A DNA stretch of 64,000 nucleotides from Streptosporangiales bacterium. GTDB taxonomy: Bacteria; Actinomycetota; Actinomycetes; Streptosporangiales; WHST01. The notes beneath the pieces are model-generated. The model was not told the origin of the DNA. It searched no databases and saw only the letters and a program-made list of their open reading frames with translations. The position numbers were made by a program, and so were the translations under genes. Positions within the stretch are counted from its first letter, which is position 1, and each line of letters begins with the position of its first letter. The stretch spans positions 1 through 64,000 of the forward strand of contig WHTA01000001.1 of the NCBI GenBank assembly GCA_009379825.1, written 5' to 3'. Shown one piece after another: positions 32,945 through 39,506 of the stretch.

Positions 32945-33714
32945 TCACCGCTCCCGGCGGTCGAGCACCGGCTTGACGTCCACGACGGGAGTGCCGTGCA
33001 CCGCCTCCAGGTTGCGTACGTGCACGCGGCTGCCCTCGACCGCCACGATCGGCACCCGGTGCGGGCCGAGCGGGTTCGGCCGCTGCGGCGAGCGGAGGTT
33101 GAACACGCCGAGCACCGGGTCGGGCGGGTCGGAGCCCGGGTAGGTCGAGAGCACGTCCCTGCGGGCGCGGTCGAACCACGTGATCACGAGGATCTCGTCG
33201 CCGACGGTCAGGTCACGCATCGCCTCGCCGAACTCGGCTTCGAACACCAGCCAAGCGTCCGGTGCGCCCAGGTCGCCCTGGTTCGGCGCATCCGCGATGT
33301 CGGTCAGGGTGGACTCCACGAACCCGACCGGCCGCAGCTCCAACGGTCCTGCGTCGAGCTTCGCCTCGGCCCTGGTGGGTTCGAACAGCTCCACCGGGTT
33401 GCCGGACGGATCCTCGATCAGCACCCGTCTGCCGCCGACACCGGTGACGACGTCATTGCGCAAGCGCACGCCGGCCTGTCGCAGCTCCTCGACCCTGGCG
33501 TCGATGTCCGTGACCTCGACGGAGAAACGGTTCCAGCCGCCCGGTTCCTGCTCGCCCCGTCGGGTGTGCTCAACGCCAGCCGGAGGTCGCCCCTGACGAG
33601 CATGGCGAACGTCGGCGCAGGATGCATCACCTGCAGAAAACCCAGATGCCGGCAGTAGAACTCGATCGCGGCGTTGACGTCGTGGACGATGTACCTGACG
33701 CTCACCGTGGCCAT
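32945..33714 (-). pseudogene. VOC (glyoxalase-like) domain joined to a TrmO-type methyltransferase, one frameshift
   Basis: The start MATVSVRYIVHDVNAAIEFY is a VOC domain; its frame breaks near 33555 where one G is missing from a run (PDG to EQEPGGWNRFSVEV). The resumed frame completes VOC (LIEDPSGNPVELFEP) and continues without stop into a TrmO/UPF0066 domain with LRPVGFVEST and SPQRPNPLGPHRV. TrmO methylates t6A37 of tRNA in known cases. The join may be a real fusion. It follows the symporter closely. Consensus error is the best explanation of the break. Confidence 0.72.
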
Positions 33715-33719
33715 GGGAG

Positions 33720-35216
33720 TCACCATGACACCGCTGTGCGGATACGTCCACGGGTCGGGTGTCGACGGCCGCCTTCGGTGCCGGGGTGAGCTCGGGTTCG
33801 GTGGGCTTGCTGGCGAGACTCAACGCCACGTAGGCGACCAGCGACGCGAGAATCGCGACCAGTGCACCCGCGCCGGGGCCGAACGGTGGTGCGTTGAGCC
33901 AGATCAACGCGACCACGATGCCGACCCCGGAGCTCGCGAGTGCGGCACGGCCGGAGCCGCGGCGCCAGAGCAGGCCGCCGTACAACGGCACGAAGCAGGT
34001 GGATCCCCAGACGATGAACAGGCTCAGCGTCGCCACCGCGAGCAGTGGCAGCTCGGCCAGCGACAGGAGGAACGCGACGGCCGCGGACGCCAGGACGGTC
34101 AGCCGTGCGCCGTAGACGGACAGCCGCTCGGTGCGGTCGGTGGCGGTGCCGCGCCGTTGCAGCAGCGGCTTGATGACGTCGTTGGAGATGATCGTGCTGA
34201 TCGTCAGGATGTACGAGTCGCAGGCCGCCGTGATGCCGGAGAGCAGGGCGAAGATCATCACCCAGCCCATCCAGGGAGGGGCGATCTCGCTGAAGAACAC
34301 CGGGAACGCGGCGTCGCTGTTCGCCAGCTCGGGCAGCTGGGTGCGCGCGGACAGGCCGATCAGGTTGAGCGCGAAGTAGACGAAGACGATGACCAACCCG
34401 GGCAGCCCGAGCGTCCAGCCGGCGACCCGCGCCCGCTTCCCGGACAGCGCCTGGGCGCCGAAGTCGGCTCGGCACGCGACACCGGCCATCCAGCCCATGC
34501 TCGTGCCGAGCAGGATGCTCGGGCCGAGCGCGCCGTCGTTGGTGGCGGACAGCAGGGTGGGGTCGACCGCGCGGACGTCGTCGAGGAGCGCGCCGAACCC
34601 GCCGGCCGTGCCGACCGCGATCGCGGCGCCGGCGAACACCACGACCAGGATGACCACGGCCTGCACGCTGTTGATCAGCGACGTGACCCGCATCCCGCCG
34701 AGCGTGACGTAGCCGATGAGTGCGACGAGCACGACGAGCTCGGACAGCCATACCGGCAAGCCGGCGACGCTGTGCAGCAGCACGCCCACACCGACCAGGT
34801 TGAGCATCAGGTAGAGCGTGTAGACGGCGACGAAGACGAGCCCGAACCAGATGCGCATCGCGTAGCTCTTGTAGCGCAGGCCGACGAACTCGGGGATGCT
34901 GCTGACGTGCCACTGGTGCAGCCGCTTCGCCACCAGGGCCAACGGGAAGTGGCCGAGAATGGTGCCGAAGAAGAACGACACCATCGCGAACCCGCTCGCG
35001 TACCCGTAGCCGGTGAAGCCGATGAGCGAGACGGCGCTGAGGTACGTCGCGATGTTCATCAGCACCATGCGCGGCGCGCCGAGCTGCCTGGACGCCACCG
35101 CGAAGTCATGGGGTGCTGTCGGCGCGGTGCCGGCGCGACAGCGTGAAACCGATCCCCAGCAGGAGCACGAAGAAGACGAGTGCGCTCACTGCGTAGTAGA
35201 CGTTGATGTTCCCCAC
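33720..35216 (-). pseudogene. Sodium:solute symporter (SSS family), frameshifted
   Basis: About 490 codons with roughly 13 helices. GTG 35216 begins VGNINVYYAVSALVFFVLL behind GAGGAG; the frame shifts near 35108 before DFAVASRQLGAPRM, then runs through helices such as SLIGFTGYGYASG and GVACRADFGAQ. The C-terminal stop is unclear: in this frame it reads into the VOC gene, while TGA 33720-33722 in another frame would overlap the VOC start. It imports an organic solute with Na+. It is coupled to a 34-aa membrane peptide upstream and to the selenoprotein operon. Confidence 0.8.
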
Positions 35217-35365: not shown

Positions 35366-35902
35366 CTAGGGGACCAGACCGAGGAGGCGCATCACCTCGT
35401 CGGTGACGGCCGGTACCTCGGCGAGTACCTCCGCCTCCTGCCGGCCGCCCAGTGGGTGACTGGCTTCGACGATGCGCAGTTGCGGCACACCCGCAGCCGT
35501 GACCAGCGTCTGCGCCATCGCCACGAACGGCGTGGTGCAGAAGAGGACCACGGGGATTCCTGCCCGCTCGAACCGAGCGGCGTCGCGGCAACTCCACGAC
35601 GTGCAGGCGCCTCAGTCACCACTCCCGGTGAAGATGACGTTGGCGGTGGCGGCGAGCCGTTCGCGGACGTCCTCGTTCATGCCTTCGGCGGCGCTGCCCT
35701 TGCGCTCGATGCTGAGCTGCATGCCGCCGGCACGCTCGCCGACGCGTTGAGCGACCTGTTCCATGAGGAAGCGCGCGTTCGGCTTGGTGTTGTCGAGGAT
35801 GCCGAGCACACCGCCGGCGAGGTTCGCGACCTCGGTCTTGACGTCATCGCCGATGTCGGCCTGTCTGCCCAACGGACTGAAGACCTGCACGGTACGGGTC
35901 AT
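35366..35902 (-). CDS. UGSC-family selenoprotein, Sec encoded by in-frame TGA
   Basis: A 178-residue protein read through TGA at 35612-35614 (residue 97). Upstream: TVQVFSPLGRQADIG and ATANVIFTGSGD. Downstream in the same frame: G-A-C-T-S-W-S-C, then DAARFERAGIPVVLFCTTPF to the TAG. The motif U-G-A-C-T-S is a near match to the U-G-S-C motif that names the family of (seleno)proteins. A hairpin fitting a bacterial SECIS starts 10 nt after the TGA. It overlaps the 357-aa gene upstream by ATGA. The reaction is unknown; the Sec and nearby Cys suggest redox or nucleophilic chemistry. Selenocysteine genes are not in the window. Confidence 0.82.
35581..35601 (-). promoter_or_regulatory. Bacterial SECIS-like hairpin
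   Basis: On the minus strand CGTCGTGG (35601-35594) pairs with CCGCGACG (35588-35581), eight pairs including one U-G, around the loop AGTTG. The stem begins 10 nt after the TGA and the loop GU lies about 20 nt after it, within the spacing known for SelB-binding SECIS elements. The loop contains the expected G-U. Confidence 0.7.
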
Positions 35903-37075: not shown

Positions 37076-38128
37076 ATGAACACAGCCGCCGCACCGGTCG
37101 ACCCGTCCGCGCTGCGTGTCGTGACAGGGGACGCGGCCGCCGAGGGCGTCGTCGCGCGCCTGGACGCGGCCGGGCTCGGCGACGGCTTCCCGATGGCGTC
37201 GCCGACGGCGGCCAAGGTGTCGGCGATGCTGGCGGGACGTACGGCGGACGAGCCGGTCGAACCGCTCGCGCCGTTGTGCTACCCGGCCACCGTCGAGGAC
37301 GTCGCCGTATGCGCCGTACTGGCCGGCTGCGCACCAGGGGTGCTGCCGTACCTGCTCGCCGCGGTCGACGCCGTGACCGCGGACGAGTTCAACTTGCTCG
37401 GCGTCTCCACCACGACGGGCAACGCGGCAGCCGGCATCATCGTGCACAGCGCCGGCCGGCTGCAGCACCCGTTCGCGACCGGCGCGAACTGCCTGGGGCC
37501 GACGCCGGTGAACGCCGCCTTCGGCCGTGCGTTCGCGTTGGCCTGCCGCGTGCTCGGCGGTGCCGTGCCGGGCACGTTGGACATGGCGACGCTCGGCCAG
37601 CCGGCGAAGTTCGCGTTGTGCCTCGCCGAGGAGCAGGCACCCGCGGGGTGGCAGACGTGGCACGAGTTCCGCGGTGCGCCGGCGGACCGGGATGCGGTGA
37701 CCGTGTTCTGCACGGCGGGCAACCTCGAGGTCGCCGACACCTGGAGCGACACCGCGCGCGGGCTGCTCGAGTCGCTGGCCGCGGCGACACCGTTGCCGGC
37801 GGGCATCAGCGCGAACGGTGAGCTGGTCGGCGGCGGCCAACAGCTGTACGTGCTGCCGCCCGAGTGGGTGGTGCGGCTCGTCGCCGAGGGCTGGACCCGC
37901 GAGTCGACCGGCGCGTACCTGTACGAGCACGCGGTGCTGCCGGTGGACCGGCTGCCGGCGAGCGCGCTTTCGCGCCTCACCGAGGGCGCCCGCGGGCAGC
38001 AGGTGCTGCGCTGCGCGCGGGCACCCGCCGACTACCTCGTGCTGTGCACCGGCGGTACCGGGGTGAAGGCCGCCTACCTGCCGTCGTGGCCCGGGGGATC
38101 GATCGCCGTCACCCGGGAGGTCCGGTGA
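37076..38128 (+). CDS. Conserved protein of the UGSC locus (paralogue B)
   Basis: A 350-aa protein, distant paralogue of the divergent 357-aa product: GLGDGFPMASPTAAKVSAML, AVCAVLAGCAPGVLPYLLAAV, DEFNLLGVSTTTGNAAAGIIV and FALCLAEEQAPAGW align in the same order. It lacks recognised catalytic motifs and transmembrane helices. ATG 37076 is chosen; an upstream GTG at 37049 is possible. It is the first gene of a plus-strand run with a NifU-like gene, overlapping it by 4 nt (GTGA), so the two arms probably serve one pathway. Confidence 0.7.
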   Translation: MNTAAAPVDPSALRVVTGDAAAEGVVARLDAAGLGDGFPMASPTAAKVSAMLAGRTADEPVEPLAPLCYPATVEDVAVCAVLAGCAPGVLPYLLAAVDAVTADEFNLLGVSTTTGNAAAGIIVHSAGRLQHPFATGANCLGPTPVNAAFGRAFALACRVLGGAVPGTLDMATLGQPAKFALCLAEEQAPAGWQTWHEFRGAPADRDAVTVFCTAGNLEVADTWSDTARGLLESLAAATPLPAGISANGELVGGGQQLYVLPPEWVVRLVAEGWTRESTGAYLYEHAVLPVDRLPASALSRLTEGARGQQVLRCARAPADYLVLCTGGTGVKAAYLPSWPGGSIAVTREVR

Positions 38129-38415
38129 GCAACGAAGATCTGGGAGGACCCGTGAAACCCTCGCAAGCGGAACTCGACGACCTGCTCGCGCCGATGCGCG
38201 AGGCGCTGCGCGCCGACGGCGCCGACGTCGAGGTGCTCGACTGGGACGACCAGAGCCTGTCGGTGCGCCTGGTGCTGGAGTCGGTGGACTGCGAGGAGTG
38301 CGTGCTCCCGCGCGCGAGCCTCGAGCAGACCATGCTGACCATGTTGCAGCCGGGCTACACCGGGTTGCAGGACGTGCGGCTCACCGACCCGCGCGAGTCC
38401 GGATCGCGGGCCTGA
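38125..38415 (+). CDS. Small NifU-like cysteine protein
   Basis: 96 residues from GTG 38125 (GGGAGG at 38115-38120) or 87 from GTG 38152, which also has a good site. ALRADGADVEVLDWDDQSLSVRL is followed by a C-x-x-C pair in VDCEECVLPRASLEQTML, the layout of the NifU C-terminal domain (DGGDVEL...CxxC). It may carry an Fe-S cluster or act as a thiol carrier. It overlaps paralogue B and precedes the dehydrogenase-like gene by a few bases. Confidence 0.6.
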   Translation: MSNEDLGGPVKPSQAELDDLLAPMREALRADGADVEVLDWDDQSLSVRLVLESVDCEECVLPRASLEQTMLTMLQPGYTGLQDVRLTDPRESGSRA

Positions 38416-38423
38416 CGGCCGCC

Positions 38424-39506
38424 GTGGCGTACGAGATCGCCGCGTTCGGCGGCGACGGCATCGGCCCCTCGGTGGTCGCCCAGGCGGTCAAGGTGCTCGA
38501 TGCGGTGAGCCAGCGCTGGGGTTACGAGTTCACTGTGACCGAGCACGCGGTGGGCGCCGCCGGGCTGACGACCGCTGGGACCAGCCTGCCACCCGCTGCG
38601 CTGGCCGCCGCGCGGGCGTCCGCGGCCGTGTTGCTCGGCGCGGTCGGCGACCCGGCGATCGACCGGTCTGTGGGCGACGAGAACCCGACGGTGGCGTTGC
38701 TGAAGCTGCGCCGCGAGCTGGGGCTGCACACCAGCATCCGGCCGGTGCGGTTGCCGCCCGACCTCGCCGACCTGTCGTCGCTCCGTACCGGCGACGGCAG
38801 GGCGCCGATCGACCTGGTCATCGTCAGGGACCTGGCGGCCGGCCTGTTCAACGGCCAACCGCGTGGCCGCCGGCAGCTCGCCGGCGACGTGGCGGAAGCG
38901 TTCGACACCATGAGCTACTCCACGACCGACATCGCGCGCACCGCGCACACTGCCTTCCGGTGGGCCGGGAGGCGGCGTGGCCTGGTGACCTCGGTCGACC
39001 AGGCGAACGTGCTGGAGAGCTCTGCGCTGTGGCGCGACGAGGTCACGCGCATCGCGAAGGAGTACCCCGACGTACGGCTGCAGCACGTGCTCGTCGACAA
39101 CTGCGCCAACGACCTGGTCCGCCACCCGGACCGGTTCGACGTCATCCTCACCGACGGCCTGTTCGGCGGGATCCTCAGCGACGAGGCCGGTGCCGTCGCC
39201 GGGTCGATCGGCATGCTCGCGTCGGCCAGCGTCGGTGACGGGCCCGGCATCTTCGAGCCCGTCCATGGCTCGGCGCCGAGCCACGCAGGGAAGGACGACG
39301 TCAACCCGATCGGCACCGTCCGTGCGCTCGCCATGCTGCTCGACCACGCGCTCGGGCTGGCCGAGCCGGCTGCGGCCGTCGAGGCCGCCGTCGTGCGCAC
39401 GGTGGCGGGCGGGCTCCGTACGTACGACATCGCCGTCACCGGCAGCCGTGTCGTCGGCACGGAGGCGATGGGGGACGCGATCGCGGCGGCGGTCGCCGAG
39501 GGGTGA
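38424..39506 (+). CDS. Isopropylmalate/isocitrate dehydrogenase-like protein with altered catalytic residues
   Basis: A 360-aa beta-decarboxylating dehydrogenase fold starting GTG 38424 (AYEIAAFGGDGIGPSVV). It follows LeuB in order: LLGAVGDPAIDR, IVRDLAAGLFNGQPRG, FDTMSYS, VLVDNCANDL and ILSDEAGAVAGSIGML. The active-site Lys of VDKANVLE is Gln193, and one metal-binding Asp of TDNLFGDILSDE is Gly249. It may have lost the usual oxidative decarboxylation or act on another substrate. It is part of the UGSC plus-strand block, so housekeeping leucine synthesis is unlikely. Confidence 0.8.
   Translation: MAYEIAAFGGDGIGPSVVAQAVKVLDAVSQRWGYEFTVTEHAVGAAGLTTAGTSLPPAALAAARASAAVLLGAVGDPAIDRSVGDENPTVALLKLRRELGLHTSIRPVRLPPDLADLSSLRTGDGRAPIDLVIVRDLAAGLFNGQPRGRRQLAGDVAEAFDTMSYSTTDIARTAHTAFRWAGRRRGLVTSVDQANVLESSALWRDEVTRIAKEYPDVRLQHVLVDNCANDLVRHPDRFDVILTDGLFGGILSDEAGAVAGSIGMLASASVGDGPGIFEPVHGSAPSHAGKDDVNPIGTVRALAMLLDHALGLAEPAAAVEAAVVRTVAGGLRTYDIAVTGSRVVGTEAMGDAIAAAVAEG

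Follow-up and report, generated by a model that had tools for sequence, protein, structure and literature searches.

An in-frame UGA very probably read as selenocysteine in a UGSC-family gene, and its likely partner subunit

Introduction

On the minus strand of the window analysed here (the whole stretch of DNA, 64 kb in length), a frame of recognisable protein is crossed by one TGA. The locus therefore raises two questions: whether this codon is a stop, a sequencing error at a cysteine codon or a signal for selenocysteine (Sec), and, if Sec is inserted, what kind of enzyme the gene encodes. A sequence-only reading of the locus had described a 178-codon frame broken only by the TGA and protein-like on both sides of it, had assigned the product to the UGSC type with the TGA standing for Sec, and had pointed to an 8-bp stem with an AGTTG loop, 10 nt after the TGA, as an argument against an error at a Cys codon. 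It had also named checks: a search of the genome for selA, selB, selC and selD, an alignment of residue 97 with homologues, and a covariance search of the hairpin. These were carried out in the current work, together with an analysis of the genes that accompany UGSC loci.

The UGSC family is a known, functionally uncharacterised bacterial selenoprotein family, of which the window gene is an ordinary new member. In itself, the gene is of interest only as a clear and well-supported example; it is the family-level points that are worth following.

Results

The frame was found as described and its coordinates were correct; its strand, which the sequence-only reading did not give, is minus (Table 1). 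It starts at ATG 35902-35900 and ends at TAG 35368-35366, and the single in-frame TGA, at 35614-35612, is codon 97, in the context GSGD-U-G-A-C-T-S-W. Both the UGSC assignment and the protein-like character of the two sides were borne out by profile searches. Thus, the Pfam family UGSC (PF24696) matches residues 7-174, spanning the TGA, with 148.7 bits against a cut-off of 25, and the NCBIfam family NF041046 matches with 126.4 bits, just above its cut-off of 125. Judged by these matches, the window protein is a full-length member of the family, with which it shares the Sec position, a Cys three residues on and a SECIS element right after the UGA; it differs in having UGAC for UGSC and in a score barely above the NCBIfam cut-off. 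Its identity is 81% to the protein of a second genome of the genus (G001), 53% to one copy in genome G346 and about 20-40% to the rest, which places the gene, at the sequence level, on a divergent branch of the family.

Table 1. Features of the UGSC locus, with window coordinates and supporting evidence
Feature	Position	Strand	Evidence
Sodium:solute symporter, downstream of UGSC gene	33809..35098	-	PF00474, 2.6e-29
UGSC-family selenoprotein gene, 178 aa	35366..35902	-	PF24696, NF041046, translation; range includes the stop codon
Bacterial SECIS hairpin, 8-bp stem, loop AGTTG	35581..35601	-	Covariation; leave-genus-out covariance model; folds
In-frame UGA, very probably read as selenocysteine (residue 97)	35612..35614	-	Cys/Sec column invariant; UGA kept in G001 orthologue
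Companion subunit gene (putative), 357 aa	35899..36972	-	Beside UGSC in 65/69 loci, fused in some
Second companion-family copy, divergently transcribed, 359 aa	37049..38128	+	BLASTP 2e-38
Small NifU-like CxxC protein	38125..38415	+	PF01106, 4.7e-5, just below cut-off
3-isopropylmalate/tartrate-type decarboxylating dehydrogenase	38298..39506	+	PF00180, 7e-102; TIGR00169, 361 bits

The alignment of residue 97 with homologues gave a clear answer. Among 38 aligned UGSC members, position 97, Cys100 and one Phe are the sole invariant positions, and column 97 holds Sec or Cys in all 38. The Sec/Cys-GxC motif is present in the window protein as U97-G-A-C100, with Cys100, a resolving-type cysteine, three residues past Sec97 and Ala instead of Ser as the third letter. 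This Ala had been noticed correctly, but its description as an uncommon variant does not stand: two G001 genes have it, as do Cys-type homologues of Nocardia, Pseudonocardia and a Caulobacteraceae MAG, and it is not especially rare. About half of the sampled relatives have Cys at the Sec position. In a tree of 60 members the Sec and Cys forms are intermingled, so that at least four switches between them are forced; the window gene clusters with G001 and with a single gene from a more distant genome, one in which about ten UGSC copies are present.

The hairpin is exactly as it had been described. Its arms, CGTCGTGG (35601-35594) and CCGCGACG (35588-35581), enclose the 5-nt loop (35593-35589) and form 8 pairs, one of them G-U, starting 10 nt past the TGA. 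The fold energy is unexceptional for a GC-rich stretch (z = -1.35), and mean hairpin energy failed to separate Sec from Cys members; for these reasons, covariation was used. Across 18 UGA-type sequences, the covariation score was 0.435 as opposed to 0.154 in shuffles, none of 500 shuffles scoring as high; both sides had changed in 17 cells (7.7 in shuffles), and pairs swap G-C for C-G or U-A for G-C at four stem positions. Stem cells were paired in 81% of cases, compared with 68% in shuffles and no more than 55% with the arms slid, and the covariation was lost when the arms were slid by 1-3 bases.

The covariance search that had been suggested agrees with this result. A model of the hairpin built without the window's genus and run on the 64-kb window ranks the site first, with 38.5 bits (E 3e-9) against 9.7 bits for the next site, a score of which part reflects the conserved protein (the active-site codons), since several Cys-type relatives keep SECIS-like sequence, to which this model gives as much as 38 bits. 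Two such sequences, in Cys-type fused UGSC genes at L074:7512-7552 and L065:7590-7630, score 38 and 31 bits; they perhaps reflect a recent change from Sec to Cys. Rfam has no family at the hairpin site.

The search for the decoding machinery found selA, selB, selD and a tRNA-Sec with anticodon UCA, all present in the genome. On contig 101 the tRNA-Sec gene (78 bits) directly adjoins selB; contig 44 carries selA and selD, divergently arranged, with a second UGA-type UGSC gene about 2 kb away. Further candidate selenoprotein genes are a PrdB-like gene with an in-frame TGA (TUPVCHESVG) and a downstream hairpin (G000 contig 18:29637-30068; L118:4383-5069, minus strand) and a gene for a formate dehydrogenase alpha subunit in which a strong hairpin follows the in-frame TGA (ARIUHSATVPGLG; G000 contig 5:66634-67371; L135); with these two, the selenoprotein genes of the genome number at least four. 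Many other actinobacterial genomes likewise contain TGA-type PrdB-like and GrdB-like genes. No selA was found in G049, G061 and some other draft genomes that have UGA-type UGSC genes.

The second genome of the genus carries an orthologue (C113) in a syntenic cluster, 81% identical and with the same UGA, the same UGAC and the same hairpin. Because the UGA and the hairpin recur in this independent genome, a one-off base error is excluded. Between the two orthologues, dN/dS is about 0.20 before the UGA (0.116/0.582) and 0.22 after it (0.133/0.614), which argues that the segment past the UGA is translated and kept; as judged from these substitution rates, purifying selection acts on both sides of the codon. 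Over codons 97-110 only 1 of 42 bases differs, compared with 19% across the gene.

Upstream of the UGSC gene, in the same operon, lies the gene that we call the companion, whose stop codon overlaps the UGSC start as ATGA. Its product matched no Pfam or NCBIfam family. Among the 69 UGSC loci collected here, profile searches placed such a companion, of about 350 aa, on the same strand and no more than 400 nt away in 65; three of the four loci that lack it are at contig ends. Conversely, in the four genomes searched whole (G000, G001, G286 and G333), every companion gene adjoins a UGSC gene. The two are joined in a single frame in L016-L019, L065 and L074, fused frames occurring in Nocardia, Streptomyces, Pseudonocardia, a Caulobacteraceae MAG and others. 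The near-obligate adjacency and the fusions argue strongly for a physical complex; the UGSC protein and its companion are likely to be a two-subunit enzyme, co-translated and probably bound. A fusion of UGSC with a domain named 'Unknown_1' was described in the Global Ocean Sampling study in 2008 (PMC2398784). There, as in the fused loci here, a UGSC domain is joined to a conserved unknown domain, whereas the partner in the present loci is mostly a separate gene; by analogy, the companion is probably the 'Unknown_1' domain. The second companion-family copy in the window is 32% identical to the first and is conserved in G001.

The companion's structure is predicted with confidence (pLDDT 86). 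A relationship to class I fumarases or cyclic-amide hydrolases was considered and rejected, the fold matches (TM about 0.3 or less, rmsd 12-17) being weak and not taken as meaningful. No relative of UGSC or of the companion emerged when the PDB was searched by sequence.

As for UGSC itself, 11 of the 38 members weakly match TIGR01917 (glycine reductase selenoprotein B), the best with 2.9e-6. The window protein matches this model at 2e-5 with 23.7 bits, below the cut-off of 602, and TIGR01918 with 20.7 bits, below the cut-off of 65. When the UGSC profile was compared by hhalign with two chosen profiles, GrdB and PrdB-like selenoproteins from other actinobacteria, E values of 1.6e-6 (GrdB) and 2.3e-6 (PrdB) were obtained at a probability of about 90%, with Sec aligned on Sec. 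The shared part, about 95 residues long, bears the Sec, which is followed by a G-I-P ... H-P motif. By these alignments, UGSC is homologous to the Sec-bearing C-terminal domain of GrdB/PrdB. The rest of GrdB differs, its N-terminal part of about 350 aa being unrelated to the companion. The Sec of GrdB and PrdB is thought to attack the alpha carbon of the substrate, cleaving a C-N bond.

The AlphaFold2 model of UGSC (pLDDT 90) consists of five alternating beta-alpha units, and many of its PDB matches are flavodoxin-like folds, of moderate quality. The thioredoxin topology (beta-alpha-beta-alpha-beta-beta-alpha) does not appear in the model, and the fold is predicted to be flavodoxin-like rather than thioredoxin-like.

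The surrounding genes hint at the context in which the enzyme might work. The symporter, likely to be the importer of the pathway substrate, is kept in G001 (88%), and a 51% version shares a contig with a G346 UGSC gene. The NifU-like CxxC protein, of which the G001 cluster has an 80% identical copy, is a possible redox or Fe-S partner. The dehydrogenase, the true start of which is probably near 38415, is conserved in the G001 cluster and has distant versions near two G346 UGSC genes. Taken with their retention in G001, the symporter and the dehydrogenase (and the NifU-like protein) suggest that a small organic acid or amino-acid-like compound is taken up and broken down. Clustering of neighbours showed, however, that genes around UGSC loci vary widely and that, besides the companion, only general catabolic genes recur, among them SDRs, branched-chain amino-acid-type ABC transporters and alcohol dehydrogenases (named by sequence inspection). 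Given this variety, no single pathway is supported and no substrate is named. In a glyoxalase-fold gene of the window (32945-33726, minus strand), a frameshift, either genuine or introduced in assembly, puts the N-terminal half in one frame and the C-terminal half in a frame that runs into a TrmO-like domain.

Discussion

One of the aims of this study was to establish how the UGA at 35614-35612 is read. The Sec machinery, the Cys/Sec column, the UGA of the G001 orthologue and the covariation of the hairpin all favour the proposal of the sequence-only reading, and we are highly confident that the codon is read as Sec in a true UGSC-family selenoprotein. In that case, SelB with Sec-tRNA(UCA) would decode the UGA, directed by the downstream hairpin. 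If the true codon were TGC or TGT, the gene would encode a Cys-type UGSC protein, a form which about half of the sampled relatives have, and the frameshift in the glyoxalase/TrmO region shows that such defects exist in the assembly or the genome. Such an error is nevertheless very improbable, since the same TGA and hairpin are found in the G001 orthologue and in many further relatives, the hairpin covaries, and the genome has the full Sec machinery together with other TGA-type selenoprotein genes. The least credible reading is that of a pseudogene or a true stop, whereby translation ends at residue 96 and the remainder is decaying or is a separate frame. TGA is indeed a plain stop in table 11, and the ORF 35612-35902 would give 96 aa, but dN/dS is alike on both sides of the TGA, the profile match continues through it, and the invariant Cys100 and a conserved helix come past it. 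Read-through of the UGA as Trp is a poor explanation, as only Sec and Cys occur in column 97 of the aligned relatives.

Even as a genuine selenoprotein, UGSC could be a thioredoxin-like thiol oxidoreductase in redox defence and not a catabolic reductase of the GrdB/PrdB kind. Its UxxC resembles the CxxC redox centres, and a Trx-like fold had been suggested for the family (PMC2398784). This role is easier to entertain than either an error or a stop, yet we consider it unlikely, because the predicted beta-alpha architecture and many of its PDB matches are flavodoxin-like, the sequence similarity is to GrdB/PrdB, and the near-obligate companion of about 350 aa points to a larger, substrate-binding enzyme.

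For the GrdB/PrdB-like reductase, the following scheme may be envisaged. Sec97 would lie where the third helix of the flavodoxin-like domain begins and, together with Cys100, would make up a selenol/selenenylsulfide centre like that of the homologous C-terminal domain in GrdB/PrdB. The substrate, bound by the companion, would be attacked or reduced by the Sec; Cys100 would then free the product by forming an Se-S bond, and a thiol donor, which may be the NifU-like CxxC protein, would reduce this bond again. Complex formation, reductase chemistry, the catabolic role and the electron donor are what we infer for the UGSC system, and the model as a whole, by analogy with GrdB/PrdB, we put at slightly worse than even. 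Since the companion is unrelated to the N-terminal part of GrdB and is without a reliable structural match, the substrate and the reaction are guesses.

On the same tentative footing, UGSC and its companion may constitute an undescribed class of two-component, selenium-dependent reductases in actinobacteria and beyond, sharing with the glycine and proline reductases only the Sec-bearing domain and using an unrelated substrate-binding subunit. With the near-obligate companion, the relationship to GrdB/PrdB and the predicted flavodoxin-like fold, an 'unknown redox protein' becomes a two-subunit enzyme that can be tested.

The family extends further in two respects. Genome G346, of the same order, has about ten UGSC genes, mostly UGA-type, beside about ten companion genes (L060-L067). 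A divergent branch (L092, L093, L094 and L066) carries the motif U-S-x-C, lies beside divergent companions, and has a hairpin with a GGTC loop in a shifted register.
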